From positions 186,001 to 250,000 of the forward strand of contig NZ_BJYT01000006.1 of the NCBI RefSeq assembly GCF_007991655.1: a DNA stretch of 64,000 nt, read 5' to 3'. How positions within the stretch are numbered: position 1 is the stretch's first letter; each line of letters begins with the position of its first letter. Origin of the DNA: Segetibacter aerophilus (GTDB taxonomy: Bacteria; Bacteroidota; Bacteroidia; Chitinophagales; Chitinophagaceae). Below, piece after piece: positions 43,658 to 64,000 of the stretch. The notes under the pieces are model-generated. The model was not told where the DNA came from and did not search any database. It saw only the letters and a program-made list of their open reading frames with translations. A program made the position numbers and the translations under genes.

Positions 43658-43729
<72 letters not shown>

Positions 43730-45130: not shown

Positions 45131-45173
45131 ACCACACTCCCTCAAGGGGCTTTGGAAACGGTTTTATATATTT

Positions 45174-45208: not shown

Positions 45209-45215
45209 TCTTAAT

Positions 45216-45289
45216 ACGGGAATAGTTCAACGGTAGAATAGAGGTCTCCAAAACCTTTGATCAGGGTTCGAATCCTTGTTCCCGTGCCA
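45216..45289 (+). tRNA. tRNA-Trp (anticodon CCA), CCA end encoded
   Basis: Acceptor ACGGGAA/TTCCCGT, anticodon loop CTCCAAA, T-arm CAGGGTTCGAATCCTTG, discriminator G at 45286 followed directly by CCA (45287-45289), unlike the four other tRNAs here. Placed between tuf and secE as in many Bacteroidota. Confidence 0.96.
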
Positions 45290-45331
45290 ACGAATGGGAA
45301 TTGCAAAATGTCAATTTTCTAAAGTAAACAA

Positions 45332-45526
45332 ATGAATAAGATTTCAGCATACTTTCGGGACAGTTATACAGAGCTAACGGAGAAAGTTACATGGCCATCG
45401 TGGTTGCAGTTACAGCAATCTACAGTAATCGTATTGGTTGCAACAATTATAATCACAGCGCTAGTGTGGGTAATGGACTTTGCGTCTCAAAACTTATTGA
45501 AGGCTATTTACTCATTATTTAAGTAA
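45332..45526 (+). CDS. secE: Preprotein translocase subunit SecE
   Basis: 64 residues, the short single-helix form. NKISAYFRDSYTELTEKVTW contains the conserved amphipathic EL..KVTWPS segment (EKVTWPSWLQLQQS), followed by one membrane helix (VIVLVATIIITALVWVMDF). It clamps SecY in the SecYEG channel. Its stop TAA overlaps the nusG ATG by one base, so the two are translationally coupled. Confidence 0.96.
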   Translation: MNKISAYFRDSYTELTEKVTWPSWLQLQQSTVIVLVATIIITALVWVMDFASQNLLKAIYSLFK

Positions 45527-46131
45527 TGGAAGAAACAACATCAAATATAAATGCAGCTCCTCCTGCTGAACAGGAACTTACCAAATATTACGCGTTGCGT
45601 GTAGTAAGTGGTAAAGAGCGTAAGGTTAAGGAATATTTAGATAAGGAAGTAGTACGGAGCGGTTGGACGGAAACTATTAAACAAGTTTTCTTGCCCATGG
45701 AAAAGGTGTATAAAGTGCAGAACGGAAAGAAAGTAATGCGTGAGAAAAACCTGTATCCCGGTTATCTTTTTTTGGAAGCTTTTGAAGGCAAGCTTACCGA
45801 TGACATGGTTCAGGTTATTAGTAATGTTAGTAATGTAATGCACTTTTTAACTGATGGTAAGGGCGCTAAGGGAAACATTATTTCTTTGCGTAAAAGCGAA
45901 GTAAATAAAATGCTCGGTAAAGTGGATGAGATGAACGACCAGGGCATTGTAATGAACGAACCTTTTATTGTAGGTGAAACTATTAAGATTATAGAAGGTC
46001 CTTTCAATGACTTTAATGGTGTAATAGAAGAGGTAAATGACGAGAAGAAAAAATTGAAAGTAACAGTAAAAATATTTGGACGATCTACACCTGTAGAATT
46101 GAACTATATGCAGGTTGAGAAACTTGGATAG
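45526..46131 (+). CDS. nusG: Transcription termination/antitermination factor NusG
   Basis: 201 residues. The NGN domain (KYYALRVVSGKERKVKEYLD, KNLYPGYLFLEAF) is followed by a KOW domain (FIVGETIKIIEGPFNDFNGV). It binds RNA polymerase to modulate pausing and couples to ribosomes or Rho. It overlaps secE by one base. A clear terminator follows; the usual downstream rplK-rplA-rplJ-rplL-rpoBC genes are not here. Confidence 0.97.
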   Translation: MEETTSNINAAPPAEQELTKYYALRVVSGKERKVKEYLDKEVVRSGWTETIKQVFLPMEKVYKVQNGKKVMREKNLYPGYLFLEAFEGKLTDDMVQVISNVSNVMHFLTDGKGAKGNIISLRKSEVNKMLGKVDEMNDQGIVMNEPFIVGETIKIIEGPFNDFNGVIEEVNDEKKKLKVTVKIFGRSTPVELNYMQVEKLG

Positions 46132-48976: not shown

Positions 48977-49444
48977 ATGCTTGCAGGTGTGTATACGGGT
49001 AGGATTTTGAGCATTCTGTTATTTTTTAACGTGGCTTGTATTAGCAATAGAGCAAAGGAGCAACACCAGTATTATTATTACCCGCAGAAGAATGTGTATT
49101 ATGACCCGGTGAAAAAGAATTTTTGGTATTCGTTGAATGGCGCCAGGAGTTGGAATAAATTTTCAGATAGCAACGCCGTAGAACCAGTAGCCTTAGGAGC
49201 AAAAGTTTTAATTAGTAGTACAGATAGCGAGGTGTATAAAAATAATGAGAGCCATCGAAAGCTATATTCCGGAGCATTGTTAGCTATAAATGTAACCGAC
49301 ACAACCGGCGCTTCTCCCGGACCGGAAGTAGCTGGACGTACAGTGGTTCAAAAGAAAAAGATAACTGCGCGAAAAAAGCCGGTCGAACAAAAACCCAAGA
49401 AGGGTTTAGGTAAATTTATTAATAAGATTTTTGGAAAGCATTGA
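48977..49444 (+). CDS. Exported hypothetical protein with basic C-terminus
   Basis: 155 residues. The hydrophobic N-terminus (ILSILLFFNVACIS) could be a signal peptide or a lipoprotein signal with Cys21, though the -3 residue (Asn) does not fit a good lipobox. The mature part contains YYYYPQKNVYYDPVKKNFWY, an aromatic motif I associate with small exported Bacteroidota proteins (not a defined family). The C-terminus is rich in Lys and Arg (KKKITARKKPVEQKPKKGLG). It lies 64 bases before the FhaA-N-like gene and may be the first gene of that operon. Confidence 0.6.
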   Translation: MLAGVYTGRILSILLFFNVACISNRAKEQHQYYYYPQKNVYYDPVKKNFWYSLNGARSWNKFSDSNAVEPVALGAKVLISSTDSEVYKNNESHRKLYSGALLAINVTDTTGASPGPEVAGRTVVQKKKITARKKPVEQKPKKGLGKFINKIFGKH

Positions 49445-49508: not shown

Positions 49509-50462
49509 ATGAAATCGAAAACGACGTTATGGCAACGTATGGGTTTACATGATTGGTTTCTTAAAAAAGAAGTAACCAGTGTTACACAACAAATTCCAAC
49601 GCTAACTCCTGATGACGTATATAAGTATATCGTGCAGAAGTTTAACGAGTCAATTGCACAGCTATCTTTTGCCAACCGCGTTGTTTTTTTTCATGAATAC
49701 ATCATCTGTTTTAACCCTGCAGATTATAATCAGTTCATGGATAATAAGCGAGGCATTTTCGGACTGATCATCCAGGAGTCAGTCAAGCAATTTTATGATA
49801 CCTTAAAAACCTATAGGCTGCAGGGCAAAACCGTGGAGCCTTCCAGTAATAAATGGGTTTTTAGGTTTGTTTCGCACCCGGATTATAAAAGAGGCGATAA
49901 AAGTTTTATTGGCAAATTACTTCCGGGCAGCAACGTACATAAGGAGGAGAATTTGAGGGTAACGTTTATTCCAAGACAAACGGGGATTGCCGAGACTTAC
50001 GATATCAACGATGAGATTTTGAAAGGCTTTACATTCTATAGCGAAGGGTATTACGAAGTGCCATACCAGGAAGACCTTGTGTTGGATGAAAAGAAAATCA
50101 TGAACTCCGAGACTTCTGTGTTGGCCCGTTTTGAAACGATTGTTCCAGACCGCGAATATGCAGGAAAGAAGATTGAGTTTTTGATGAAGGAGGAAGAAAT
50201 AATTGTTACGGGAAAAGAAGAGCAACGGGATAATGCAAACATTTTTAAAATTCCATCTGATTGGGTAAATGCCCCTCACCTGCGAATTCGTTTCGATAAA
50301 AACAATGGAAAATTTTTTCTTGCTTCTTTTGGAGAAAAGACAATATTGAATGAAAACGAAGTTAAGCTCAGTGACATGCAAAACATTACGTGGGTAGAGC
50401 TGCCACTAAACTCGCGGATCGTTTTAAACGGAATAGTCGGTATCAACATTTTTAAATCTTAG
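49509..50462 (+). CDS. FhaA-N-like protein, phosphosignalling island
   Basis: 317 residues, soluble, no signal peptide. Residues about 25-130 (LTPDDVYKYIVQKFNESIAQ, VVFFHEYIICFNPADYNQFM, IQESVKQFYDTLKTYRLQGK) recall the N-terminal DUF3662-type domain of actinobacterial FhaA. This is only a pattern-level resemblance. The C-terminal 90 residues are beta-rich (IFKIPSDWVNAPHLRIRFDK, GEKTILNENEVKLSD), with the strand order of an FHA domain but without the conserved GR...SRxH residues. Therefore it is either a degenerate FHA or something else. It overlaps the 33-residue gene region closely and sits upstream of PP2C. Confidence 0.5.
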   Translation: MKSKTTLWQRMGLHDWFLKKEVTSVTQQIPTLTPDDVYKYIVQKFNESIAQLSFANRVVFFHEYIICFNPADYNQFMDNKRGIFGLIIQESVKQFYDTLKTYRLQGKTVEPSSNKWVFRFVSHPDYKRGDKSFIGKLLPGSNVHKEENLRVTFIPRQTGIAETYDINDEILKGFTFYSEGYYEVPYQEDLVLDEKKIMNSETSVLARFETIVPDREYAGKKIEFLMKEEEIIVTGKEEQRDNANIFKIPSDWVNAPHLRIRFDKNNGKFFLASFGEKTILNENEVKLSDMQNITWVELPLNSRIVLNGIVGINIFKS

Positions 50463-50466
50463 ATGA

Positions 50467-50568
50467 ATGGTCAGTTCAGTATTATCTATCACCTTATTAG
50501 TCATCTGCATTCTGCTGCTTGTTGCAAACTTCAGGGATATAAAAAATACACACAATAACAATGGCTGA
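50467..50568 (+). CDS. 33-residue single-pass membrane miniprotein
   Basis: ATG at 50467, TGA at 50566-50568. The product starts MVSSVLSITLLVICILLLVA and ends NFRDIKNTHNNNG: one 19-20 residue hydrophobic helix and a short polar tail. It begins four bases after the stop of the preceding gene and overlaps the start of the PP2C gene by eight bases, a layout typical of translational coupling. A pure membrane helix filling an otherwise 98-base gap is unlikely by chance. A competing 31-codon frame from 50463 has no such character. The role is unknown; it may be a partner of the neighbouring membrane proteins. Confidence 0.55.
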   Translation: MVSSVLSITLLVICILLLVANFRDIKNTHNNNG

Positions 50569-51982
50569 AAATTATTTTGGAATAACCGACACCGGTAAAA
50601 TGCGGACTAACAATGAAGACACCTTCATTGCCCAACCCGTCTTAAATGATCAATTTATTGCTGCCTGTGTAATTGATGGAGTAGGAGGCTACGAAGGTGG
50701 CGAGGTTGCGGCCCGACTTGCGCATGATGCCATACTGGAACGCTTTGGAGGTAAATCGGATGACTATATAAAACTGATGAAAGATGCGATAGCTGCTGCA
50801 AACGAAGCTATCTATACTGAGAAGAAGGTCAGCAGGGCAAATGAGCAAATGGCATGTGTGCTTACAGTAGCGCTGGCAGATATTCCAAATAATAAATTTT
50901 ACTATTGTCATGTCGGTGACACCCGGCTTTATCTGTTTCGAGACAACTCGCTGGTAAAAATTACGCGAGATCATTCTTTTGTTGGTTTTCTGGAGGATAG
51001 TGGTCGGTTGTCTGAAGAGGCAGCTATGCGTCATCCAAAACGCAATGAGATTAATAAAGCTTTGGGCTTTGATGCCGCCATTAAGGGCGACGATTATATA
51101 GAAACAGGCGAATCTCCTTTTCTTCCGGGTGATACTATTCTTTTATGTAGCGACGGACTTTCTGATATGATCGGCAATAGTGCTATAACCGCTATTTTAG
51201 GTACAACCAAAAGCCTTTCTTTTAAAGCCAAAGCACTGGTGGATGCTGCTAACGAAGCTGGGGGAAAAGACAACATTACTGTTGTGCTTGTTCAAAATAA
51301 CAAAAGTCCTTTAAAGCAGATTGCGACCAAGCCGGCAGTCAGTTTAAAAAAAAATGAAAGCCAGGACGGCTATGATGTTTTGAAAGAGTCCAATTCCAAC
51401 TCGCACGAAAAAACAGTTTTGAAAAATAAAAAGAGAAGGAGCATAATTCCTTTCCTCATCTTTCTATCCATTTTAATCGTTGCAGCTTTTCTATGGATAA
51501 TATATTCAAACTATAAAAATAAGCGAGCCCACGAGGAAGAGCTAAAAAACGCTGTTGTTGTAAAAGAGCGAAATCCCGAAGAACAAAAGTTTATTGACAG
51601 TATTAATGGAAATACGACCAAGGAAGTTTTTGTGCTTAATACTCCTGAAACTACGTCCATCACTATAACAGATTCTATTCCCGTTACAAACGATTCTTTG
51701 CATATTATCGGTAACGGCGTAACGCTCATTAGTGACTCTACCTACAAAGGGCCTGCGTTTATAATGTCACCCGGTTCAAGGTATCTTCTACTTGATAGCC
51801 TGACCCTTGAAAATTTTGATATAGGAGTTCTCACAAGAACCTCAGGACTACATCTGAAAAACGTACAGTTTAAAAACTGTCGCGTTCCGGTTCAGTATAA
51901 CTTTTTGTTTAAAGATCGTCCTGTCATCAATGGTCGTTTTGCTGACACTGTTTTTTACAATTCAAATTCAATACACCTATAA
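50561..51982 (+). CDS. Membrane-anchored PP2C-family Ser/Thr phosphatase
   Basis: 473 residues. The PP2C domain (about 1-247) has all the metal-site motifs: MRTNNEDTF (Asp20), CVIDGVGGYEGGEVAA (Asp39), CHVGDTRLYLF, ILLCSDGLSDMI (Asp198) and GGKDNITVVLV (Asp237). A basic juxtamembrane stretch (LKNKKRRS) and one membrane helix (294-316, IIPFLIFLSILIVAAFLWI) lead to an extracytoplasmic domain of about 155 residues of unknown fold. This is the PstP architecture, except that the outer domain is larger. It should oppose the three kinases downstream. It is 16 bases from the SEDS-PBP fusion gene. Confidence 0.93.
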   Translation: MAENYFGITDTGKMRTNNEDTFIAQPVLNDQFIAACVIDGVGGYEGGEVAARLAHDAILERFGGKSDDYIKLMKDAIAAANEAIYTEKKVSRANEQMACVLTVALADIPNNKFYYCHVGDTRLYLFRDNSLVKITRDHSFVGFLEDSGRLSEEAAMRHPKRNEINKALGFDAAIKGDDYIETGESPFLPGDTILLCSDGLSDMIGNSAITAILGTTKSLSFKAKALVDAANEAGGKDNITVVLVQNNKSPLKQIATKPAVSLKKNESQDGYDVLKESNSNSHEKTVLKNKKRRSIIPFLIFLSILIVAAFLWIIYSNYKNKRAHEEELKNAVVVKERNPEEQKFIDSINGNTTKEVFVLNTPETTSITITDSIPVTNDSLHIIGNGVTLISDSTYKGPAFIMSPGSRYLLLDSLTLENFDIGVLTRTSGLHLKNVQFKNCRVPVQYNFLFKDRPVINGRFADTVFYNSNSIHL

Positions 51983-51998
51983 TAACTACTGATTTAAG

Positions 51999-54900
51999 AT
52001 GGTTTCCAATACCTCCCGTTTTGGTTCAAGAAATGTCGAGCGCCTCTTTTTATTTCTGCTAAGCATCGTAATGTTAGTGCTATTTTACCAGTTGTTTACA
52101 GTGTTGAAAAATGACCAGGCTGACGTTCAAAAACGACTTGCAAACGGAACGATGATGAACCTGAACGATAGTAAACCTGGCGAGCGAATAAAAATATTGC
52201 TTCAGAAAGGTTTTTATTTTAGTGATAAAAGAGACATTGACTTCATTGGCAAGGTGGTCGAAAACGGCAAAAGAAATCTCCCGGATGTAATTGATAACAT
52301 TGGTGAATTAAATAAGAGCAACTTTAATGTCAACTCAGAGGCTGCTTACGCTCAAGGAGGGGAAGTATTTAGAAGAAGGGTTCAGGTGGAAAGAGCTTTG
52401 CTTGGTTTTTCGGATGAAGACTCTGCGCTCTTTCAACAGGAGCGAAGAAAACCGGTTCAACTTCCCTCTGTCAATAGTTTGAACATGGGGAGTGGGTCGA
52501 TAAACGGAGTAGTTCAAAAAGGAGAAAAAATACCGGTGCAAGGTGTCCTGGTGCGGTTGCAGGTTATCTTGCCAGAGGATAGTTTGTACAGCGAGAATGT
52601 AGGAGACGTAGAACAAAGAATTGCCGTAAATACAAAAGGCGTACGAAGAGTATTTGTAGTAGACTCCTTGCACCACAGGCAACTACAGTCGCTTACAGCT
52701 TTTGCAAGAACGGATGCAAACGGTCATTTCTCTTTTACAGGTTTACCTGCTAACCGGTCATTCGCTGTTTTACCTCTTCAGCCTGGTTATGAATTTGGCC
52801 GCTCTCAAGGAGTTGAAAATTTAGAAGATAACGAGGAGTTTACTTTTGTCCAGGCTCCAAATACCATTAAGCTTTTTTCAAACCGCGATTTTAGCAACTT
52901 GAAAAAAGAGCGATCTTTTATTGTTCGCACTCCGGGCGAAGCAGCAAGGTGGTTTTGGATAATTGTAGGATGTTTCATTGTATCGTTCTGGCTGCTTCAC
53001 CTGCTTTTATCTTTCAGGTTTCCCCAGGCCGACCAACTTATTCTGCCGGTAATGATGATTTTGACGGGGTTATCATTTGTCACGTTATTCAGTTTACAAG
53101 ATCCATTGCGAGACCGCTTCTTCTCAAAAAGCACCCTTTTTTATTTTGAAGGCGGGATTTTAGGAATCGTTGTCTTAATGCTCTTTAACCTTCGGTACTT
53201 TACAACCGACTCGCTGATTTACCGCTTATTTGTTTTTAAAGGAAATCGTAAGGCGGCCAACGGATGGCCATGGGCTGTGGTAGCAATGGGTTTATTACTT
53301 CTTACCATCATTTTTGGAACAGGCCCGGAAGGCAGCGGAGTAAAAGTGAACCTTTTTGGCTTTCAACCAAGCGAAATTGTCAAGTACTTAGTTATTATGT
53401 TTTTGGCAGGTTTTTTTGCAGCGAACGAAAAATTCATTTCAGAATACACCTCTTTAAACAAACGCTTTTACTTTTTCTTCTTTGCCCTGTTTGCTATTCT
53501 TACAACTATATTCTTATTTCTTATACTTGGTGATCTCGGCCCTGCGATGGTTTGCTGTTTTACTTTCATCATTCTCTTTTCTTTCTCTCGGGGAGATTTT
53601 GCAGATATGGTAGGGGCCGTAGTAGTATATGTGCTTTCAATCTGGCTCAGTAAAAACGTATGGATAGGAACGGCTATTACTGCAGCTACTCTCACACTGT
53701 ATACCCTTTTCAAAAGAAGACAGTTAAGCGAATCTGCAGTGATGGCTTTGGTTGTTATTGCGGGCTTTTTGCTCCTTGATCAAATTCCTTATTTAGACAA
53801 ACTAATCCCTGGCCCGGTTCATAGGTTAACCGATAGAAAAGCAATCTGGCAAAATGCATGGAACAATGAAGTGTTCGGTGGCGACCAGGTAGCAAACGGT
53901 ATCTGGGCCATGTCGAGTGGGGGAGTCACAGGGCAGGGTGTGGGAGAAGGTTTTGCCAAAACTATTCCTGAAGCGCATACAGATATGATACTTCCATCAA
54001 TGGGTGAGGAGTTTGGATGGGCAGGAATTATCTGCATATTTATTCTTTTTCTTATTTACCTACATCGCTCCTTCATAATTGGTCGACAGACGGGAACTCC
54101 TTTTCTATTTTATGTCTGTGCGGGAATTGGGGTAAGCACATTTGTACAGTTTTTACTAATTGCCGGTGGTTCAACCGGTGCCTTGCCGCTTTCAGGAGTT
54201 GCGTTGCCCTTTATGAGCTACGGAGGATCGTCCCTGCTTTGCAATATGCTTGCGGCCGGCTTTTTATTATCCGCTTCGCATCTGCAAGGGTCTGCAGTTC
54301 AAATGAAGTTCATCACGCGCCAGCAGGATAAAAACCTAATGCCTGCTCTTGTTGCTGCTTGCGTTGGGATCGTGTTGTTAGGCGTAAATGTGTCAAAATA
54401 TTTGTTTAATAATAAGAGGTGGGTCGTTGAACCTGCATTGGTTGCTGATAGGTCCGGAGCAAGAATGTTTAGCTATAATCCGCGGATTTCTATTCTCATG
54501 AGTAAGTTACAGGCAGGTAATCTTCTTGATCGAAAAGGATTGATACTTGCTACCAGCCACCAGGATCAAATAAACAAACAGTACGACTCACTGCTGTCAG
54601 TGGGCATTCCAAAAGAAAACCTGGAGGCTTTTGCCTACAAGCGTCTCGACCGGTATTATCCTTTCGGAGAGCAAATGTTTTTTTGGACAGGTGATGCTAA
54701 TACCGGTGTTTTTAACGGCTCAACGAATGGTTATTTTGCGGAGTACGAACATGCAGCTGAGTTGAGAGGTTTTCCAACCCCCACTTCCAAATTCCAGGTA
54801 AGTGCTACCCGGTTTAAAGAAGATAGATTTTTACCACGAACGTCTACCGAGATGACTGTTAACCGACGTGATTATGGGGCAATTGCACCACTGCTATTAG

Positions 54901-56276
54901 CAGGAATTAATAGCCCTGAAGTAGCAGCCTTCAAACAGAGAAACAGGGACGTACAGTTGACAATGGATGCAGGCCTGCAAACCCATTTGAATAGGATTTT
55001 GGCCACGGATGATAGTGTGAGGATCAAAAGGGTTTCAGTAGTCATTATGGAAGACAATACAGGCGATGTACTTGCCTCTGCTTCGTATCCCTTACCGCCC
55101 GTAAACGATTGGGATCGCCTTACACTTACAGAGGGGGAATTAAACAGGCTACCCGGATGGAACTTGAACAGCGATATTGGTTTCACTTATGCAACCCAGC
55201 CGGGGTCTACTGCAAAATTGGTAACTGCGTTGGCAGCTTTTAATAAATTAGGAGAAAAAGCAGCTACCAAAACAATTCGTGTATTGCCACAGGATCTTAT
55301 ACGGATCAAAAGTGCAGAGCCTGATGAAGCTGGAAATATTTCGATCGAAAGGGCGATTGTAAAATCCAACAACTCTTTTTTTATAAGACTTGCAAACGAA
55401 GAACATCTGCAGGAAGAAATGGGAACGCTGTATTTGCAAACCGGGATGTTTCTACATGGAGTCGGAGGTTATTTCTACGAGAGCGAACCGAACAACAACG
55501 ATCAGCAAAACACATGGCGCGAGCTGTGGCGAAAGACAGAATTTAGGAGTGCAAAAAGTTATAACCCAAACAACATAAAGCGCACACGTGGTAAAGGTAT
55601 CTCGGGTATGGCCTGGGGACAGGGAGAATTAATCGCAACTCCTGCGGCGGTTGCAAGAGTTGCTTCAGGGATTGCTAATAATGGAATGTTGGTTCCTAAC
55701 CGGTATGTCTTAAGCATAAGCGGAGTACAAACACCTGTGAAACCTGGAGTGGCGATAGCAAAGAGCCCTGAATTTGCAGCTTACATGACCGATTATATGT
55801 TGAAACAGAGTGCTGGAAAAGCAGAGCGGTTAAAGTTAAATGTGGCAGGAAAAACGGGAACGCCGGAAAGGATCTGGAAAAGCGAAAGAATTAACGATGG
55901 CTGGTATGTCTTTTTTGCCCCAAAAGCAAAAGGCCCGGGGCATATTGTTACTTGTATCAGGCTGGAGGCTGCGAAAGGTTCAAGTGAAGCTGTTAGACTT
56001 GCAGGCACTTATGTTGTCCCTGCTTTGGTTGAAAGAGGCTACATTAAAAGTTTTGAAAACAATCAAAATCAGCGTATCGCTCCCGCTGCGCCGGTCGCGC
56101 AAGTGGCTGAACAAGATCAGGCAGAGAATAACGGCGACGACAACGAGGCGTTGCCAGACAGCCAGGCCCAGCAATTATTGGTAAATAAGAAATCTGCAGG
56201 TAAAAAGTCTCAACCTGTAAAACCGGCTGTCACGGTAAAAAAGCCTGACGAGGAGCCTGGCGACACCGCTCAATAA
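51999..56276 (+). CDS. SEDS (FtsW/RodA) glycosyltransferase fused to a penicillin-binding transpeptidase
   Basis: 1425 residues. Helix 1 (15-33) is followed by an extracytoplasmic region (34-310) with a carboxypeptidase-regulatory-like module (GVVQKGEKIPVQGVLVRLQ, TDANGHFSFTGLP). The SEDS domain (about 316-800) has GDLGPAMVCC, GGVTGQGVGEG, PEAHTDMILPSMGEEFGW (Asp662 aligns with the essential SEDS Asp) and LPFMSYGGSSLLCNM. The transpeptidase (about 950-1345) has STAK (Ser1070-Lys1073), SNN (1123-1125) and KTGT (1285-1288). A charged tail ends the chain. Both peptidoglycan polymerisation and cross-linking sites are intact in one chain; normally these are two proteins (RodA+PBP2, FtsW+PBP3). No frameshift lies at the junction. 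Confidence 0.95.
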   Translation: MVSNTSRFGSRNVERLFLFLLSIVMLVLFYQLFTVLKNDQADVQKRLANGTMMNLNDSKPGERIKILLQKGFYFSDKRDIDFIGKVVENGKRNLPDVIDNIGELNKSNFNVNSEAAYAQGGEVFRRRVQVERALLGFSDEDSALFQQERRKPVQLPSVNSLNMGSGSINGVVQKGEKIPVQGVLVRLQVILPEDSLYSENVGDVEQRIAVNTKGVRRVFVVDSLHHRQLQSLTAFARTDANGHFSFTGLPANRSFAVLPLQPGYEFGRSQGVENLEDNEEFTFVQAPNTIKLFSNRDFSNLKKERSFIVRTPGEAARWFWIIVGCFIVSFWLLHLLLSFRFPQADQLILPVMMILTGLSFVTLFSLQDPLRDRFFSKSTLFYFEGGILGIVVLMLFNLRYFTTDSLIYRLFVFKGNRKAANGWPWAVVAMGLLLLTIIFGTGPEGSGVKVNLFGFQPSEIVKYLVIMFLAGFFAANEKFISEYTSLNKRFYFFFFALFAILTTIFLFLILGDLGPAMVCCFTFIILFSFSRGDFADMVGAVVVYVLSIWLSKNVWIGTAITAATLTLYTLFKRRQLSESAVMALVVIAGFLLLDQIPYLDKLIPGPVHRLTDRKAIWQNAWNNEVFGGDQVANGIWAMSSGGVTGQGVGEGFAKTIPEAHTDMILPSMGEEFGWAGIICIFILFLIYLHRSFIIGRQTGTPFLFYVCAGIGVSTFVQFLLIAGGSTGALPLSGVALPFMSYGGSSLLCNMLAAGFLLSASHLQGSAVQMKFITRQQDKNLMPALVAACVGIVLLGVNVSKYLFNNKRWVVEPALVADRSGARMFSYNPRISILMSKLQAGNLLDRKGLILATSHQDQINKQYDSLLSVGIPKENLEAFAYKRLDRYYPFGEQMFFWTGDANTGVFNGSTNGYFAEYEHAAELRGFPTPTSKFQVSATRFKEDRFLPRTSTEMTVNRRDYGAIAPLLLAGINSPEVAAFKQRNRDVQLTMDAGLQTHLNRILATDDSVRIKRVSVVIMEDNTGDVLASASYPLPPVNDWDRLTLTEGELNRLPGWNLNSDIGFTYATQPGSTAKLVTALAAFNKLGEKAATKTIRVLPQDLIRIKSAEPDEAGNISIERAIVKSNNSFFIRLANEEHLQEEMGTLYLQTGMFLHGVGGYFYESEPNNNDQQNTWRELWRKTEFRSAKSYNPNNIKRTRGKGISGMAWGQGELIATPAAVARVASGIANNGMLVPNRYVLSISGVQTPVKPGVAIAKSPEFAAYMTDYMLKQSAGKAERLKLNVAGKTGTPERIWKSERINDGWYVFFAPKAKGPGHIVTCIRLEAAKGSSEAVRLAGTYVVPALVERGYIKSFENNQNQRIAPAAPVAQVAEQDQAENNGDDNEALPDSQAQQLLVNKKSAGKKSQPVKPAVTVKKPDEEPGDTAQ

Positions 56277-56280
56277 AGAT

Positions 56281-56344
56281 GAAAAGTACAAGGGAGCGTC
56301 GCAAGAAAAGTTAAATAGTAGTACAGGTGTTTGTCGCAAAAAAA
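56281..56344 (+). repeat. Dispersed intergenic element, copy 9
   Basis: AAAAGTACAAGGGAGCGTCGC with the GCGTCGC box at 56296, then TAGTAGTACAGGTG shared with copies 1 and 4; the second box reads TTTGTCGCAAAA. Lies five bases after the SEDS-PBP stop, within the 249-base gap before the FHA gene. Confidence 0.6.
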
Positions 56345-56525
56345 ATTGCTTGATACTTTGAATATATTGCCTCGTCTTTTTTGTTGTAGGCATAACCCAC
56401 ATTGATGTAAAAAACCAAGGATGTACATTGCAACAAGAACCACATACAAGAGTACATTTTAGTACACCTTTTGTGCTTTTTCAATATTCTATAAAATTTC
56501 ATTTAAAGTAAAACCAGCCGATAAA

Positions 56526-57305
56526 ATGTTCGACATATTTAAGAGCCGCCCAACAGATATAAAGGGAATTCGTGCTTCTTTGCTCCAGTTTATAAAAGAA
56601 CAGTTTCAGAAAGTTGAAGGTGGAGAGGGCTCAAATATCAAGGGGCTTTGCCTTTACATAAATTGTTCTGACGAAGAAAAACATTTGTATGAAGGAGCAG
56701 TATATGCAGATGAAGAAAACCGGTTTAAAGAAGAAGAAGTACAAAGGATAGCCGATGATTATGCGATCGCGCTTCCTGCGTCGTGGACTTTTCAAATAGA
56801 GTTCGTCGATGAAATTCCTGTTGAAGCATTAAAGGCTCCTGGGTTAAATGCGGGTTTATTTATATCGACAAAGAAAAAACCAAAAGTTTCGCAGGATGCA
56901 ACGGCATACATAAGAGTACTGGTTGGTGAAGCTGAAAAAGAGGTTTATACTATTTCTTCGTCCCGTGGTAAAATAAATATAGGGCGCGAAAAAAGAGCGC
57001 AAACTGCAGACGGATTTATGAGGGAAAATCACATTGCTTTTCCTGATAACAGCAAAGATGAGAGTAACCGATCAGTGAGCCGCCAACATGCACATATAGA
57101 ATGGGATGCAGAAAATGCTGCCTTTTATTTATATGCAGACGAAGGGGGAATACCACCTAACAACAAAATGAAAGTAAGAACAGAGGGAGGCGTACCTATA
57201 AAATTGCAGACTACCGAAATAGGTCATCGGCTGCAGGAGGGCGACCAAATAATATTAGGAGAGTCGGCACTATTGGAATTCAGAACTTCTCCCGTTGATA
57301 ATTAA
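56526..57305 (+). CDS. FHA-domain phosphothreonine-binding protein
   Basis: 259 residues, cytoplasmic. The N-terminal domain (1-about 115) starts FDIFKSRPTDIKGIRASLLQ and is not firmly recognised; it loosely resembles FhaA N-terminal domains. The C-terminal FHA domain (about 125-257) has INIGRE (153-155 GRE), SVSRQHAHIEW (185-193) and LQEGDQIILGESALLEF, including the Arg, Ser and His expected to contact phosphothreonine. It is likely to recruit phosphorylated kinase or substrate tails. It is nine bases before the first kinase and must be cotranscribed with it. Confidence 0.92.
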   Translation: MFDIFKSRPTDIKGIRASLLQFIKEQFQKVEGGEGSNIKGLCLYINCSDEEKHLYEGAVYADEENRFKEEEVQRIADDYAIALPASWTFQIEFVDEIPVEALKAPGLNAGLFISTKKKPKVSQDATAYIRVLVGEAEKEVYTISSSRGKINIGREKRAQTADGFMRENHIAFPDNSKDESNRSVSRQHAHIEWDAENAAFYLYADEGGIPPNNKMKVRTEGGVPIKLQTTEIGHRLQEGDQIILGESALLEFRTSPVDN

Positions 57306-57314
57306 GAATAATTA

Positions 57315-59078
57315 ATGGCAAGGGTTTTTACAATAACACCAGGTTTAGAAAATATGGGTGGCCTTAAAACAGGAGGCCAGGGTTCGATCTATAAAGGAAG
57401 AAGAATAGGAGAAATTATAACTGCGGTGAAAATCCTGCCTACTCCTATTTATAGTGAAACAGGTGACGATGCTAATTATTCAGCTTTTAAAAATGAGGTA
57501 GCAAAGCTTAAAAAGGTCAACGAAATTTCAAATCCCAACGTCGTCAAGATCTTAAGTTCAGGACTTTCTGAGCAAGGCAATTTCCCTTTCATTGAAATGG
57601 AATACATAGAAGGTCCTGACCTAGAGGAGATACTTCATACTCCCGACCATTCCGTTTTTACAATCAATGAGGCTTTAAAAGTTGCCGAGCAATTATCAAA
57701 TGCAATCGCCCATTGCCATAGAATGGATGTGAGGCATGGGGATATAAAAAGTAATAATGTAAAATATAATACGGCTTCGGGTAATTATATCCTGCTTGAT
57801 TTCGGACTGGCAATGATGTCTGATGAAGAAAGGCGAAGCAATATTGATAGGCTAGGTGCGATAGAATTTATGGCTCCTGAACAGAATTCCGGGCAGATGT
57901 TGTTTCAGACCGACGTCTATAGTTTTGGCGTTGTTCTATTCGAGCTACTTGCGGGTACAGTTCCATTTCCATTGAAAGATAAAGGAGAGACTGCGCGTAA
58001 CGAAGTAAGGCTTGCCCATATGACATCTCCTGTTCCTAACTTGTTAGAATTAAGGAAAGCAGCGTTACCATCAACCTGGAGTACAGAAAAAAAAGCGCGT
58101 GAAATACAGGTGCCTGGGTGGGTAATAAAGATGATCGAAAAATGTGTCGAGAAAAAACCTGAGAAACGCTTTCTAAACGGGGGCGAACTATACAACTTTA
58201 TCATTCAACAACTCACCTCAAGGCCGGCTACTCCTGCTGCCGGGGCAAAGACGGTATCTATTAAGCCCCTGGCAAAACAAGATTTTATTGTATATCATCA
58301 ACAACTAAAAAAGCAGCTTTCTCAATACCAAAAGGAATTAACCGAAAAAGAGAGTGAATTGGCGGAATTAAAAGTACTGTTGGGTGGAGAGGAAAATGCA
58401 AACGGTACAGGCGAAACGAAGAGGATGGGTACACCTAAAAAGAATAGGGTGTCAAGTGCTTCGTTTGTTGCATTACTGTTTTTAACTCTTGGCTTAGGTG
58501 CTTTTGCTATGTACCCGATTATCAAAAACAGTTTTTTTGCGGGCAAGGCTAAGACGGGTGGTGCAACTGAACCGATAAATACTCCGACGGAAGAAAAAGC
58601 GATCTCGGAACCAGTATTTAGGGAGAAGAAAGACGCATCGAAAAAGAACGAAGAAACTATGGTGCGATTGGGCGATGAAGACTCCGCAAGCGCGAACGGC
58701 AGCAATGGTTTACACGATCAACCGGAAACGAACGATGCCTCTACGGTTGATGGAACAAATGAACGTTCCGCTAATGCTGCCAATGCTGCTAATCGAACGG
58801 CTGACCAAAATGATCAATCTGCAAACGGTGATGAAGACAGTTATACCAAACCAGGAAAAGTCTCAAAAAAATATGCTGTGGTTGCTAAGGCTTATTTCTA
58901 TAACCAGCCCAATGAAGACACGAAGCGTGATGAATTTATAAGTCCCGAGGAAAAAGCTGTAGTTCTTGCTTTGAATGAAAGGTATGGTTTTATATATGTA
59001 GTAATTACGACGCCGGAGGGTCAGGTATTTAAGGGATGGTTACGTAAGAGAGATGTGAAACTGTATGCTGACGAGTAA
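57315..59078 (+). CDS. Transmembrane Ser/Thr protein kinase 1
   Basis: 587 residues. Kinase domain about 5-300: Gly-rich loop GGQGSIYKG (20-28), Lys39 in ITAVKILPT, catalytic loop RHGDIKSNN (Asp143, Asn148), DFG at 162-164, APE at 187-189, and DVYSFGVVLFELLAG. The catalytic loop reads HGD instead of HRD. A coiled-coil juxtamembrane part (LKKQLSQYQKELTEKESELA), one membrane helix (about 382-404), an Asn/Ala/Thr-rich spacer, and a C-terminal SH3-like domain (about 515-587: VAKAYFYNQPNEDTKRDEF, GFIYVVITTPEGQ) follow. PASTA domains are absent. First of three tandem paralogues. Confidence 0.94.
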   Translation: MARVFTITPGLENMGGLKTGGQGSIYKGRRIGEIITAVKILPTPIYSETGDDANYSAFKNEVAKLKKVNEISNPNVVKILSSGLSEQGNFPFIEMEYIEGPDLEEILHTPDHSVFTINEALKVAEQLSNAIAHCHRMDVRHGDIKSNNVKYNTASGNYILLDFGLAMMSDEERRSNIDRLGAIEFMAPEQNSGQMLFQTDVYSFGVVLFELLAGTVPFPLKDKGETARNEVRLAHMTSPVPNLLELRKAALPSTWSTEKKAREIQVPGWVIKMIEKCVEKKPEKRFLNGGELYNFIIQQLTSRPATPAAGAKTVSIKPLAKQDFIVYHQQLKKQLSQYQKELTEKESELAELKVLLGGEENANGTGETKRMGTPKKNRVSSASFVALLFLTLGLGAFAMYPIIKNSFFAGKAKTGGATEPINTPTEEKAISEPVFREKKDASKKNEETMVRLGDEDSASANGSNGLHDQPETNDASTVDGTNERSANAANAANRTADQNDQSANGDEDSYTKPGKVSKKYAVVAKAYFYNQPNEDTKRDEFISPEEKAVVLALNERYGFIYVVITTPEGQVFKGWLRKRDVKLYADE

Positions 59079-59112
59079 TCTCATAGATTTAAAGTAAAAA
59101 ATTGCACTACTT

Positions 59113-59139
59113 CATCCACATCTCTTAAAAATGTGGATG
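59113..59139 (+). repeat. Inverted repeat between kinase genes 1 and 2
   Basis: CATCCACAT (59113-59121) and ATGTGGATG (59131-59139), perfect 9-bp arms with a nine-base spacer, ending 20 bases before the second kinase ATG. There is no T-tract, so it is more likely a leader hairpin or binding site than a terminator. Confidence 0.6.
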
Positions 59140-59159
59140 GCAAAACCAGGTACAAATAA

Positions 59160-60866
59160 ATGGCAAAGGTCTTTACAATAGCACCAGGTTTAGAAAATAT
59201 GGGCGCCCTAAGAAGCGGTGGCCAGGGATCGGTATATAAAGGAAGAAGAGTTGGAGAAATCATTACGGCTATCAAATTATTGCCTACTCCAATTTATAGC
59301 GAGAGCGAGGATGATAAAAATTATCGGGATTTTCAGAATGAGGTGCAGAAATTAAAAAAGGTTAACGAAGAGCCCAATCCTAATGTAGTCAAGATTCTTA
59401 GTTTCGGTTTATCTGAAACCGGAAACTTTCCTTTTATTGAGATGGCCTATATCGAGGGGCCTGACCTCGAGGAATTATTAAAACCTCCTCACGACCCGAT
59501 CTTTTCTGTAAAAGAAGTAATAAAAGTCGCAGAGCAGTTGTCCAATGCTTTGTCGCACTGCCACAGACTTGATGTAAGGCACGGAGACATTAAAAGCAAT
59601 AATGTAAAATATAACCTTCATACAGGAAACTACGTATTGCTCGATTTTGGACTTGCCATCATGTCTGATGAACAGCGTCGGACAAGCCTGAGAAGGGCAG
59701 GTGCAGTAGAATTTATGGCGCCGGAACAGAATGAAGGGTTGATGCTTTTTCATACAGATGTCTACAGTTTTGGGGTAGTAATATTTGAACTGTTAGCAGG
59801 CCGCGTACCTTTTCCTTTGGAGGATAAAGGCGAGACTGCAAGGAACAACGTGCGTTTGTCACATCTCGAGACTCCGCCTCCCGATGTACTTGCTCTAAGA
59901 AGAGAAAATTTACCCGCGAGTTGGACTGCGGAGAAGAAAGAAAGGGAGATGTCGGTGCCTGATTGGCTGGTTACGCTCATTTACAAATGCCTCGAAAAAA
60001 GGCCCGAAGACCGGTTTAAAAACGGGATGGAGCTGCATGAATTTATTGCCCACAATAGTATTCATGCCGGTCCTAATATCGATCCTGTTCAAACCGCTGC
60101 ATTGCAGGAGGAAAGTGAGAGGCTGCAAAAAGAAAGCGATCAGCTTCAACGTCAACTTTTGCAGTATAAGGATCAGCTAAGCATCAGGGACAAGGAGTTA
60201 AGCGAACTCAGGTCGATATTGAAAAGAAGGGAAAGTGAGTTGCAAAATGTAGCGGAAACAGATCAAAATGGTGGAGGATCCAGGGGCGTATCAAGAACAG
60301 CTTTCCTTGCATTGCTTCTGCTCACCATCGGACTTGCTGCATTTTCTGCGTATACACTGATGAAAAAGAACGGTTTGGTAAATAAGCAAAGTGCTACTAC
60401 AGATAGTACTGTTACAATTGATAGTAAAGATACAGGGAACACTACACTAATGCCAAGCCCCATTAAGACTTCAACGCAAAGAAGAAAAGACTCTTTATCC
60501 CGCGTAAAGCATATTGCTGATTCTATAAAACGGGTAAATAAGAAGCGGTTAATGCAGGCTGACTCAAGTATTAATGAGGATACAAATGATAACGGTCAGG
60601 ACAATAATGGCGATGATAGCAAAGAGCAAACTGATCCGCCAACTGCCACTAATAAGTTTGGAAGATATAAAGCTGCCTCAATTGCTTATTTCTACAACGA
60701 GCCTGACGAGGATACCAAGCGGGAAGGTGTATTTATTAATAAATGGAATGCGCCTGTAACCGCTTCAGATGATATGAACGGGTTTATTTATGTGGTATAT
60801 ACCAATGAAAAGAAGCAGACGACCCGCGGTTGGCTGCTAAAAAAAGACTTGGTACGAGTGAAGTAA
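59160..60866 (+). CDS. Transmembrane Ser/Thr protein kinase 2
   Basis: 568 residues. The first 300 align without gaps to kinase 1: GGQGSVYKG (20-28), Lys39, RHGDIKSNN (Asp143), LLDFGLAIM, FMAPEQNEG. The coiled coil (EESERLQKESDQLQRQLLQY) is longer. Membrane helix about 380-402. The outer part is a basic/acidic spacer and the same C-terminal SH3-like domain type (about 500-568: IAYFYNEPDEDTKREGVFIN, MNGFIYVVYTNEKKQTTRGW). It is 81 bases after kinase 1, with an inverted repeat between. All catalytic residues are present, with Gly in the HRD arginine position. Confidence 0.94.
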   Translation: MAKVFTIAPGLENMGALRSGGQGSVYKGRRVGEIITAIKLLPTPIYSESEDDKNYRDFQNEVQKLKKVNEEPNPNVVKILSFGLSETGNFPFIEMAYIEGPDLEELLKPPHDPIFSVKEVIKVAEQLSNALSHCHRLDVRHGDIKSNNVKYNLHTGNYVLLDFGLAIMSDEQRRTSLRRAGAVEFMAPEQNEGLMLFHTDVYSFGVVIFELLAGRVPFPLEDKGETARNNVRLSHLETPPPDVLALRRENLPASWTAEKKEREMSVPDWLVTLIYKCLEKRPEDRFKNGMELHEFIAHNSIHAGPNIDPVQTAALQEESERLQKESDQLQRQLLQYKDQLSIRDKELSELRSILKRRESELQNVAETDQNGGGSRGVSRTAFLALLLLTIGLAAFSAYTLMKKNGLVNKQSATTDSTVTIDSKDTGNTTLMPSPIKTSTQRRKDSLSRVKHIADSIKRVNKKRLMQADSSINEDTNDNGQDNNGDDSKEQTDPPTATNKFGRYKAASIAYFYNEPDEDTKREGVFINKWNAPVTASDDMNGFIYVVYTNEKKQTTRGWLLKKDLVRVK

Positions 60867-60994
60867 CATCGAAGCAAACCCTTTATTGTTGCAATAAAAT
60901 TTTCGTTTAGGTGAGCAGTGAACGACTCTTCTCCACCTTTCACCGGGAAATGCTGTCTTAATATTACTTGCAAGGTCAAAATTAAAAATTATAG

Positions 60995-62668
60995 ATGGCT
61001 AAGGTGTTTACGATAACTGAGGGTTTGGAAAATATGGGGGCAATAAAAACCGGCGGCCAGGGATCAGTTTACAAAGGCCGGAGGTTTGGTGAAATCATTA
61101 CAGCTATCAAAATACTACCTACACCTATTTCGAGCGAAAGTGAGGAAGATAAGAATTATACTGCTTTTCAAAATGAGGTTCAAAAACTTAAAAAGGTAAA
61201 TGAGGACGCAAATCCAAATGTTGTAAAAATTCTTAATTCCGGCATAACCGACTCCGGAAACTTTCCATTTATCGAAATGGAGTATATCGAGGGACCCGAT
61301 TTGGAAGAGTTATTGCAGCCGCCTCATCCCCGCTTATTCACGTTAAAAGAAATTCTGAAGGTGGCAGATCAGCTTTCTTGCGCTTTGGCTCACTGCCACA
61401 AGGTGGGTGTAAGACATGGTGATATTAAAAGCAATAATGTAAAATTCAACACAAAGACCGGCAACTATGTTTTGCTTGATTTCGGTTTGGCAATGATGTC
61501 AGATGAACAGCGAAGAACGAGCTTACGTCATGCCGGTGCTATTGAATTTATGGCTCCTGAACAGAACGAAGGCGCCATGCTTTTTCAAACAGACGTTTAC
61601 AGCTTTGGGGTGATATTATTTGAGCTTCTTGCCGGCTCTGTTCCATTTCCTTTAAACAATAAAAGCGAGACTGCACGGAATGCAGTAATGATAGCTCACC
61701 AGGAAGCACCACCTCCTGATGCACTCAACCTTCGCCGCCAATCGCTACCCCATAATTGGAATGACGAAAAGAAAGAGCAGGAAATGAATGTGCCGGATTG
61801 GCTTATTACAATGATTTATAAATGTCTTGAGAAAAAGCCTGAGAACCGGTTTACTAACGGCATGGAGTTGCACGAATATGCATGGCAAAACCACGTGCGA
61901 ACCGCTAACAGCAATCAACTGACGCACGAACGTATTGCATTTCTTGAGAATGAGAACAACAGGTTACGCAAGGAAAGAGAACATTTGCAACAGCAGCTAT
62001 TAAAATTTCAACACCGTGAAACTAGCAGAAATAGCAATAGTTCAGTTACTAAAGGATTAACTGGAAACACCGAAGTAACGAGAAATAAAATTGCTAACTC
62101 CCCTGTCAATAGCAGCTCTGCTTATACCAAGTATGGCCTTTTATTTCTTATATTTTTGCTCGTAGGCACCGCCATTATTTATTTTTTATCTACTGGTAAG
62201 AAAGATCAACCGGACACTAATGCGAGGGTTAATTCTCCTTTAGCTAGTCCAACTACTGAACCTCCGGGAATTCGAGGACAACTACAGAATGCGAAACAAT
62301 TTTTGACAGAAGGAAAAATGGCCGAAGCCTTCATCATTTATGGTACTTTGTCTCGGCAACAGGTACCTGAAGCAATGTATTTTTATGGCAAACTAGCGCT
62401 GCAGAATAAGAACGCAAACTTAGGATGTGCTGAAGCTTTTGAACTACTTAAAAAGGCGAGTGATAAAGGTTATGCTCCTGCAAAACGAACCCTGGGTTTT
62501 TTATACTCTTTTGCAGACGACAAAGAAATACTCTCCCAGGGTAACTATTTCGAACGATGCACTTTTCGCAAAGACGTTGCAAAAGGGTCTACACTATTGA
62601 TGGAAGCGACGCTACAAGGAGACACAACTGCAAGCAGGCTTTTAAATATGCTTACTGCAAGCCGTTGA
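60995..62668 (+). CDS. Transmembrane Ser/Thr protein kinase 3 with Sel1-like outer domain
   Basis: 557 residues. The kinase domain matches kinases 1 and 2 (GGQGSVYKG, Lys39, VRHGDIKSNN, LLDFGLAMM, FMAPEQNEG). A short coiled coil (RLRKEREHLQQQLLKFQ) and a membrane helix (about 375-397, YGLLFLIFLLVGTAIIYFL) precede an outer domain of about 150 residues with Sel1/TPR-like helical repeats (AFIIYGTLSRQQVPEAMYFY, AFELLKKASDKGYAPAKRTL) in place of the SH3-like domain. Hence the catalytic half is conserved while the sensor half was exchanged. Probably the last gene of the island. Confidence 0.93.
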   Translation: MAKVFTITEGLENMGAIKTGGQGSVYKGRRFGEIITAIKILPTPISSESEEDKNYTAFQNEVQKLKKVNEDANPNVVKILNSGITDSGNFPFIEMEYIEGPDLEELLQPPHPRLFTLKEILKVADQLSCALAHCHKVGVRHGDIKSNNVKFNTKTGNYVLLDFGLAMMSDEQRRTSLRHAGAIEFMAPEQNEGAMLFQTDVYSFGVILFELLAGSVPFPLNNKSETARNAVMIAHQEAPPPDALNLRRQSLPHNWNDEKKEQEMNVPDWLITMIYKCLEKKPENRFTNGMELHEYAWQNHVRTANSNQLTHERIAFLENENNRLRKEREHLQQQLLKFQHRETSRNSNSSVTKGLTGNTEVTRNKIANSPVNSSSAYTKYGLLFLIFLLVGTAIIYFLSTGKKDQPDTNARVNSPLASPTTEPPGIRGQLQNAKQFLTEGKMAEAFIIYGTLSRQQVPEAMYFYGKLALQNKNANLGCAEAFELLKKASDKGYAPAKRTLGFLYSFADDKEILSQGNYFERCTFRKDVAKGSTLLMEATLQGDTTASRLLNMLTASR

Positions 62669-63023: not shown

Positions 63024-64000
63024 ATGAGAAAAAAAATTATACACTTTAAAGGTTGGAAACTATGCCTGGTGCTAGCCATGATAGTATGTCTTTCAACCAA
63101 CGTAAAAGCTTCCTCACATCGGGAAGCGCCTTTAATTGCGTTTGACCCACTAGTTGACAACACCGATGTTTACGCTTTCCGTAGTCCCGATGATCCAAAC
63201 ACGGTGACTATTATTGCCAACTATATTCCTCTCGAATTACCTGAAGGGGGACCCAACTACTACAACTTTGGACAAAACATTCGCTACGAAATCCACATTA
63301 AGAATAAAGCGACCACAACGACCGATGATATCACCTATCGTTTCACTTTTTCTTTGGTAAACGAAGATCCTACCACATTCTTCAATATTCGTTTGGGTAA
63401 GCAAAATCAGAAAACAACTTATACCTGTGAAAAGAGTGTAAATGGCGGTGCTTTCATAGCCATCGTTACCAACGGGGTAGTACCTCCACCGAACATTGGC
63501 CCTATCTCAATTGAAAATGCCGTTGGACTAGGGCAACCTAGCTATGAGAGTATTATGACTTCTGCTATTGCGACCACTGCAAATAATGAAAAAGTGTTTT
63601 GTGGTCCTGTAGATGATCCCTTTTTTGTTGATTTAGCAGGTGTAATGGATCTTGGAAACTTCAGGCCTGAAGGCAACACGGTAAATCCTCCTAAAGACAA
63701 ACTGGCCCGTTTCAATGTACACAGTATTGCTCTAAAAATACCTATTGCGCTTTTGCAGAAAGATGGTAAGAGCGTTGATATGGCGTCCAACATATTGGAC
63801 CCAGATTTCGTAATTGGTGTGTGGGCAAGTGCAAGCAGGCAACAAGTGAAAACGCTTGCCGCCGATGGAACACTGAGTTACAGCGGCAATTGGGTGCAGG
63901 TATCACGTTTAGGGATGCCATTAACCAATGAGGCAGTTATTCCTTTAGGAATGAAAGATAAATGGAACACTATTCCTTCAAACGCTTCAGGTGAAGGGCA
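63024..64000 (+). CDS. Exported DUF4331 protein (3' end beyond the window)
   Basis: 325 complete codons from the ATG at 63024, open to the window edge. The signal peptide has hydrophobic core LCLVLAMIVCLSTNVKA. The mature start SSHREAPLIAFDPLVDNTDV and YAFRSPDDPNTVTIIANYIP are the hallmark of DUF4331, and a conserved DPFFVDLAGVMDLGNF segment follows. Members are exported proteins of unknown role, frequently beside TPR or cytochrome-type exported proteins; the next gene is outside the window. It follows the kinase island but is separated by a 355-base gap, so membership is doubtful. Confidence 0.88.
   Translation, partial: MRKKIIHFKGWKLCLVLAMIVCLSTNVKASSHREAPLIAFDPLVDNTDVYAFRSPDDPNTVTIIANYIPLELPEGGPNYYNFGQNIRYEIHIKNKATTTTDDITYRFTFSLVNEDPTTFFNIRLGKQNQKTTYTCEKSVNGGAFIAIVTNGVVPPPNIGPISIENAVGLGQPSYESIMTSAIATTANNEKVFCGPVDDPFFVDLAGVMDLGNFRPEGNTVNPPKDKLARFNVHSIALKIPIALLQKDGKSVDMASNILDPDFVIGVWASASRQQVKTLAADGTLSYSGNWVQVSRLGMPLTNEAVIPLGMKDKWNTIPSNASGEG

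Follow-up and report, generated by a model that had tools for sequence, protein, structure and literature searches.

A stretch of 64,000 nucleotides from Segetibacter aerophilus (contig NZ_BJYT01000006.1, positions 186,001 to 250,000; called the window below, and numbered from its first base), whose genus is a member of Chitinophagaceae, contains a module of seven open reading frames (ORFs) on the forward strand at 49509–62668. In order, these encode FhaA, a membrane phosphatase of the PP2C type, a 1425-residue fusion of a SEDS protein with a class B penicillin-binding protein (PBP), FhaB and three Ser/Thr kinases with a single transmembrane (TM) helix each. The initial annotation had read the locus as a Bacteroidota counterpart of the actinobacterial cluster that brings together FHA proteins, a PP2C phosphatase, RodA, a PBP and kinases. 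Its description of the genes holds for the strand, order and position of all seven ORFs, and Pfam and hydropathy agree with it on the PP2C phosphatase, the SEDS and PBP parts within one ORF, the FHA protein and the three TM kinases. The spacings of 16, 9 and 81 bases on which it had drawn are also correct and belong to a full series of 98, 16, 249, 9, 81 and 128 bases between successive genes.

The fusion (51999–56276) matches FTSW_RODA_SPOVE (PF01098, 1.2e-44, residues 351–761) and then, in the same ORF, Transpeptidase (PF00905, 1.9e-22, residues 1013–1319). Hydropathy and an AlphaFold2 model of residues 1–780 (m69af649fad32, from 44 sequences, namely 43 of 49 homologues and the window protein; mean predicted local distance difference test score, pLDDT, 78.5) suggest that the chain starts with a TM helix, forms an extracytoplasmic domain of about 270 residues, returns through a second TM helix to the SEDS part and reaches the class B PBP after one more TM helix. 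The N-terminal domain between the two flanking helices would correspond to 52116–52913 (about residues 40–305), the SEDS domain to 53031–54284 (about residues 345–762) and the transpeptidase domain to 55035–55955. In Foldseek searches the SEDS part matched FtsW and RodA structures (FtsW 8p1u, E 1.1e-9, TMt 0.74; also RodA 8tj3 and 6pl6), and an alignment with FtsW and RodA chains was made as well. Next in rank are CNA-B-type pilin domains (5faa, E 5.2e-3, prob 1.00), which presumably fall on a CNA-B/pilin-like beta-sandwich part of the added N-terminal domain; a weak CarboxypepD_reg match (0.015) covers residues 232–272.

The residues expected of an active enzyme are present in both halves of the chain. 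The transpeptidase part contains S1070 to K1073, S1123 to N1125 and 1285–1287, which are its SxxK, SxN and KTG motifs. Asp662 of the SEDS part is kept in 44 of 44 fusions together with S1070, K1073, S1123, N1125, K1285 and G1287, while T1286 is threonine in 40 and serine in the other four (KTG to KSG). A catalytic role is described for D297 of FtsW in passages of PMC8765783, and Asp662, which lies in the motif PEAHTD with its codon at 53982–53984, is equated with D297 by the pattern PExHTD and is putatively catalytic. The fusion scores below the cut-offs of the curated equivalog models, reaching 156, 135 and 105 bits with those for FtsW, RodA and SpoVE against cut-offs of 337–449 (337.5 for ftsW), and 79.5 bits with pbp2_mrdA against 455. 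The RodA-PBP2 and FtsW-FtsI synthases share with it the two activities, the catalytic motifs and the SEDS fold; in contrast to the fusion, they are encoded by separate genes elsewhere in the window genome, of which the fusion is the third SEDS gene. Its nearest named records are from Segetibacter at 88% identity, the window genome's own records possibly having been excluded. In one other genome (G009) the fusion ORF is split in two by a single TGA (L024, 9519–13811), which is either a decaying copy or an assembly error.

FhaA (49509–50462; 317 residues, soluble) consists of an N-terminal alpha/beta domain and a C-terminal FHA fold. The protein has no Pfam match above cut-off, and the fold was recognized from an AlphaFold2 model (m30418c4ab093, built on 49 of 51 homologues picked by script and the window protein) whose C-terminal blocks mostly have a pLDDT of about 90. 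In Foldseek its C-terminal third matched 6ar0 best (E 4.9e-6, prob 1.00), the FHA domain of Mycobacterium FhaA (2lc1, E 2.4e-5) came at rank 13, and most of the 50 listed matches carry FHA names, the rest being taken as FHA-containing chains. The orthologue from a Cytophagales locus (L125) passes the Pfam FHA cut-off of 20.7 bits with 22 bits. FhaB (56526–57305; 259 residues), built of an N-terminal domain and a C-terminal FHA domain, matches PF00498 with 20.9 bits against the same cut-off and is matched in 11 of 11 rows. G153, R154, S185, R186 and H188 of FhaB are invariant in all 45 rows of an alignment of the window protein with 44 of 55 homologues, and they supply the GR and SxxH patterns of the phosphothreonine-binding motif of FHA domains. 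In FhaA, GR and SxxH are absent from the aligned places of an 11-row alignment read by eye. Since the binding motif is degenerate, FhaA more likely has a role as structural component or substrate than as phospho-reader, as far as its sequence can tell. Sequence searches with FhaA and FhaB for relatives of solved structure gave nothing significant. Two further ideas were set aside: the conserved T33 of FhaA looks like a helix cap in the model rather than a phosphosite, and homology of the N-terminal domains of FhaA and FhaB to each other was dropped after hhalign had aligned the FHA region only.

The phosphatase gene (50561–51982) encodes 473 residues with one TM helix at about residues 295–313 and an extracytoplasmic C-terminal domain. 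The protein matches PF13672 (1e-11) and scores 207.7 bits with NCBIfam Stp1_PP2C_phos, just below the cut-off of 230; D20, D39, D120, D198 and D237, presumably its metal site, are invariant in 11 of 11 sequences. Kinases 1 (57315–59078; 587 residues), 2 (59160–60866; 568 residues) and 3 (60995–62668; 557 residues) match PF00069 at 4.6e-33, 4.6e-33 and 5.5e-36, respectively, and by hydropathy have exactly one TM helix each, as does the phosphatase. By eye, the outer tails look SH3-like in kinases 1 and 2 and Sel1/TPR-like in kinase 3. HGDIKSNN and DFG motifs are present in kinase 1. Pfam gave no PASTA match in the three window kinases or in two other module kinases scanned, and the window kinases reach 137–144 bits with PknB_PASTA_kin (cut-off 450); the lack of PASTA domains and the fusion of the wall enzymes had both been pointed out in the initial annotation. 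Among 131 kinases from 85 loci, HGD occurs in 124, HRD in five and neither pattern in two, DFG is present in all 131, and exactly one TM helix follows the kinase domain in 130. A separate feature of 33 of these kinases, all encoded downstream of the fusion, is a C-terminus with a basic stretch followed by FLGIF or a similar sequence, predicted to lie on the outer side; it is found in none of the 54 upstream kinases, and the 33 loci that have it are among L034–L113 and L124–L127.

The module holds three of the four Pkinase hits of its genome (E 1e-8) and one of the two PP2C hits (E 1e-3). The only others at these thresholds belong to a triad elsewhere in the genome (L141, G000:C9:170000-182000, 5199–9076), in which genes for a vWA protein, a PP2C and a kinase-like protein are adjacent on one strand, an arrangement that resembles a TerY-P triad. 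The PP2C of the triad was considered as a relative of the module phosphatase and rejected, the two giving no match at E 0.01.

Conservation and distribution of the module

A scan of 84,980 named species with two exact peptides of the fusion, which did not properly cover other phyla, provided 232 relatives, of which the best 80 were taken. In 75 of these 80 named loci fhaA, the PP2C gene, the fusion and fhaB are complete and in this order, including L035, whose fusion is read in two pieces; the other five are cut off within the module, their contigs being 3.6 to 9.7 kb long. A kinase gene lies within the stretch in 71 of the 75 complete loci, and the contigs of the remaining four break off close to the core on one side or both. 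All five gene kinds, with the core order kept, are found in each of 11 20-kb stretches from relatives. Four stretches taken from other orders of the class likewise contain the five kinds, and in the two of them that are from Cytophagales the kinases lie between the phosphatase and the fusion. A further 20 stretches, many of them weaker matches, were selected from three family scans; they come from 18 of the 125 positive genomes, some of the others being already covered by the earlier stretches. Fusion, PP2C and kinase are present in all 20, and 19 each have fhaA and fhaB; in the one where no fhaA was found (L175), the phosphatase gene ends 103 bases before the end of the stretch. Kinases vary in position, either flanking the core or between phosphatase and fusion, and no stretch that covers the core on both sides is without one. 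These sets overlap, with four of the 11 relatives and two of the 20 further stretches repeating the fusion of a named locus, so that the 115 loci (80, 11, 20 and 4) represent 109 distinct fusions.

The phosphatase and fusion genes abut or overlap, with a median gap of -1 over 79 loci. The ratio of nonsynonymous to synonymous substitution rates against the nearest relative is 0.031–0.055 for six of the genes and 0.178 for kinase 1, which points to purifying selection on the module genes; with remoter relatives the synonymous sites are saturated and the ratio has no value. Comparison of the gene order in relatives, the check that the initial annotation had put forward, gave the same order in 75 of 80 named loci and 11 of 11 relatives and extended over three families of Bacteroidota. 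Because the core recurs at these frequencies, and fusion, PP2C and kinase recur together in 20 of 20 further stretches, the arrangement exceeds chance and constitutes a conserved module by neighbourhood.

The window genome contains two other SEDS genes, which group with the Bacteroidota FtsW and RodA rows in the tree described below. Among its relatives the module was found in 12 of 58 other genomes, namely in eight of nine congeners (the ninth being 71% complete), in four of the 26 remaining genomes of the family and in none of 23 from the order beyond. Ten genomes of a phylum-wide sample of 395, the window genome included, have it, as do four of 148 over the order of genome G304. By family, the counts are 30 of 244 for the family of the window (own genome included) and 58 of 251 and 37 of 150 for two others, taken from the names in the named-species and plasmid records to be Sphingobacteriaceae and the family of Spirosoma, respectively. 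In a plasmid collection a single record was retrieved at E 1e-20, plasmid NZ_CP089545.1 of Spirosoma oryzicola (L130), which carries the whole module and is typed as non-mobilizable. Genome G1153, of the same family as G304, has two module copies of different types (L170 and L171), one scoring 2078 bits and arranged as in the first two families, the other scoring 1202 bits and arranged as in Cytophagales, which suggests horizontal gain or transfer. A third, more divergent module type is seen at L173 (G1163:C1:1091000-1109400), in a genome that also holds a second module of the Cytophagales type. Since the host has separate FtsW and RodA genes and most sampled relatives are without it, the module is accessory: it forms a third SEDS system in addition to FtsW and RodA, patchy in its distribution and able to be plasmid-borne, features on which the initial annotation had not remarked.

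Relationship to the actinobacterial cluster

The cluster fhaA-fhaB-pstP-rodA-pbpA-pknA-pknB is described in passages of PMC6554272, according to which PknB regulates wall synthesis and PstP has an effect as well. A direct reading of the cluster in Tsukamurella (with pstP identified by blastp) and in Actinomyces oris bears out the proposed parallel in gene content. Both systems comprise two FHA proteins, a membrane PP2C phosphatase, SEDS and class B PBP parts and TM kinases on one strand, in the shared order FHA, PP2C, SEDS and PBP; in addition, the SEDS parts group in the tree and the module phosphatase matches PstP. In contrast to the actinobacterial cluster, the Bacteroidota module has a one-chain synthase with an extra extracytoplasmic N-terminal domain, its kinases are without PASTA domains and number one to three in variable places, FhaA_N is not detected, the FHA motif of FhaA is degenerate and the second FHA gene follows the synthase. 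Furthermore, its host keeps an ordinary RodA and FtsW, and the module is accessory and patchy.

Two other arrangements are partly comparable. In a clostridial cluster of Monoglobus (L132) an FHA gene likewise adjoins SEDS and PBP genes, and the SEDS protein groups with the fusions and the actinobacterial proteins, although it is a long row whose placement in the tree is unsure; here SEDS and PBP are separate, and no kinase or PP2C is annotated in the stretch fetched. Natural SEDS-PBP ORFs are in print with reference to the genome of Rhodococcus RHA1 (passages of PMC10449877). That example is from an actinobacterium, and these passages mention neither one from Bacteroidota nor a linked set of FHA, PP2C and kinase genes.

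In a maximum-likelihood tree of 42 SEDS rows, a branch supported at 100/98.8 separates 12 fusions, six actinobacterial RodA-like proteins and the SEDS protein of the Monoglobus FHA cluster from all remaining rows. Among the latter are FtsW and RodA from Bacteroidota, FtsW from Actinobacteria, and both FtsW and RodA from the same Monoglobus species. The split keeps its support if only the four actinobacterial rows in proven full clusters are used (100/98.4), with stricter columns (100/98.9) and without long rows (99/98.9). Names for the FtsW and RodA rows of Bacteroidota follow the best blastp match, an Arthrobacter SEDS with a broken frame was left out and an Ilyobacter FtsW was later dropped; one Nonomuraea row named as actinobacterial FtsW falls among the RodA-like rows. 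In approximately unbiased (AU) tests, a union of the fusions with Bacteroidota RodA is rejected (p 8.7e-5, 0.0013 and 0.0007), and so is a union with both Bacteroidota groups (p 0.00045). The module phosphatase matches five actinobacterial PstP proteins at 32–34% identity, with E values down to 5e-35, and shows no match at E 0.01 to the other PP2C of its own genome.

Because of the support in the SEDS tree, and because the phosphatase matches PstP and not the second PP2C of the genome, shared descent appears to be the more probable origin for at least the SEDS part, and convergence the less probable one, to the extent that sequences can decide. The initial annotation had held both origins equally likely; its weighting is thereby shifted towards shared ancestry for the SEDS part. 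A wider proposition is possible but, in our estimation, somewhat doubtful: a third SEDS lineage of ancient origin, separate from both FtsW and RodA and long accompanied by FHA proteins, Hanks-type kinases and a phosphatase like PstP, might exist as separate genes in Actinomycetota and some Clostridia and as a fused, transferable and even plasmid-borne cassette in Bacteroidota, so that phosphorylation-gated wall synthesis would be a portable unit rather than a Gram-positive speciality.

Proposed mechanism and alternative explanations

At the level of sequences and models, the module consists of a one-chain synthase with intact active-site residues, a membrane PP2C phosphatase, at least one single-TM kinase, one FHA protein with an intact binding motif and one with a degenerate FHA domain. 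On these grounds it is likely that the module represents a conserved, accessory and additional peptidoglycan synthase under Ser/Thr phospho-signalling, and that its SEDS part shares descent with that of the actinobacterial RodA cluster. The kinases would sense an envelope signal with their outer tails, which are variable, and their substrate would lie in the cytoplasm, being probably FhaA, a partner protein or the kinases themselves. FhaB would read the phosphothreonine and bring the complex to the fused synthase or switch it, and the PP2C phosphatase would reset the phosphorylation state. Since the cell also has ordinary FtsW and RodA genes, the module most likely adds conditional wall synthesis, for instance under stress, during shape change or in repair, rather than serving basic growth.

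A number of results have to be set against this account, some concerning descent and others concerning control. With regard to descent, Bacteroidota may have built the FHA-PP2C-SEDS-PBP-kinase set from local genes, the likeness to Actinobacteria being the product of repeated selection. Such a convergent assembly, which we regard as unlikely, would be in keeping with the lack of PASTA domains, the different order of the FHA genes and the low identity of 25–32% at which kinases 1 and 3 match PknA and PknB. The first protein, which the initial annotation had called FhaA-N-like, was not confirmed as such: FhaA_N (PF12401) has no match in the window FhaA or in 11 FhaA rows and none at E 1 in the whole genome, hhalign against five actinobacterial FhaA proteins aligned the expected stretch without significance (P 0.027, prob 1.8%), and by eye the element order of the model looks similar to FhaA_N. 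Moreover, the AU test leaves a union of the fusions with Bacteroidota FtsW unrejected (p 0.0747, 0.202, 0.085, 0.0728 and 0.0669), and the PBP tree does not help. The rows of that tree are those found by blastp, minus the partial FtsW-side PBP of the window genome; the best tree separates fusion and cluster PBPs, joining them costs 2.2 log units, and neither the tree that holds them together (p 0.178) nor the alternatives (p 0.268 and 0.193) are rejected. The SEDS tree itself must be read with some caution: the group of fusions and cluster proteins was named only after the first tree had been seen, and two of the six actinobacterial rows come from stretches in which FHA and PP2C genes were not seen, that of Embleya having a kinase only and that of Streptantibioticus none of the three. 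As the fusion stem is long (about 1.8), long-branch attraction is a possible cause of the placement. What speaks against convergence is that the fusions join the cluster proteins at 100/98 in the presence of FtsW and RodA of the same lineages as controls, robustly to the choice of columns and rows, together with the rejection of the union with Bacteroidota RodA and the PstP matches of the phosphatase. Of the overall interpretation offered by the initial annotation, the conserved module parallel to the actinobacterial cluster stands, FhaA_N is not confirmed and the equal weighting of convergence shifts towards shared ancestry.

With regard to control, phospho-regulation of the synthase is inferred from the gene neighbourhood, the protein families and the actinobacterial system. 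The synthase could instead be an accessory wall enzyme that merely sits beside kinases, phosphatase and FHA proteins serving other targets, such as transcription or transport. FHA, PP2C and kinase proteins are general signalling parts, and a module with three of the four Pkinase hits of its genome could serve the whole cell. The outer tails of the kinases are not conserved and in many cases short, the largest blast cluster comprising 39 tails of which an example looks SH3-like by eye. In one further stretch (L177) fhaB is absent beside the fusion, and at L173 fhaB and two kinases lie on the opposite strand. Co-transcription gains nothing from the terminator scan, where 14 terminator-like sites against 13.0 expected are at the level of chance; the promoter scan gave 39 promoter-like sites against 27.5 expected, and the gaps between the module genes are free of terminator-like sites on the forward strand, a finding for which the scan has little power. 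Association without control is nevertheless improbable, given that the set stays together in three sampled families, that kinases relocate and do not leave, that phosphatase and fusion genes are so closely joined (median gap -1) and that the set, synthase included, occurs entire on a plasmid. Still less probable, and in our view very unlikely, is that the fused enzyme makes or ligates a polymer other than peptidoglycan or is a catalytically altered regulator. Its unusual added N-terminal domain and SEDS and PBP scores far under the FtsW, RodA and PBP2 cut-offs would fit such a role, but the SEDS aspartate and the transpeptidase motifs are retained in all 44 fusions (KSG in four), the SEDS fold fits FtsW and RodA structures, and a transpeptidase on the same chain argues for peptidoglycan.

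Flanking genes and wider context

Immediately upstream of fhaA, an ORF at 48977–49444 on the forward strand encodes a small protein of 155 residues with a lipobox-like start (FNVAC) and a basic C-terminus. Homologues are present in nine of the 11 stretches of relatives, including all seven from the same genus; some of the 80 named loci also have one, which may precede or follow the core. The protein is probably loosely linked to the module and not part of its core. Further upstream, 43248–46131 is an ordinary translation block with tRNA genes in the order Thr-Tyr-Gly-Thr, an EF-Tu-like ORF, tRNA-Trp and a NusG-like ORF (gene names by eye). The module is flanked by a CHU_C protein (type IX secretion signal) with Ig-like domains at 46350–48293 and by a DUF4331 protein at 63024–63998, which runs off the window.

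Literature searches, in which subscription papers were thinly covered and absence is weak evidence, found no FHA-PP2C-SEDS/PBP module in Bacteroidota. Known, then, are the module kind in Actinomycetota and natural SEDS-PBP ORFs, and what these searches did not bring up is a Bacteroidota set that is accessory, fused, free of PASTA domains and sometimes plasmid-borne. The module offers a convenient test system: the synthase is a single chain, the host has another RodA and FtsW, which should permit deletion of the module, and the genes for kinases, phosphatase and phospho-readers adjoin that of the synthase. Two questions can be put to it: how FHA proteins link kinases with wall polymerases where PASTA sensing is absent, and whether the SEDS lineage tied to phospho-signalling predates the split of these phyla. 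If the proposed reading is true, control of a dedicated SEDS-class B PBP synthase by Ser/Thr phosphorylation would extend beyond Gram-positive bacteria, as an accessory cassette in many Bacteroidota.

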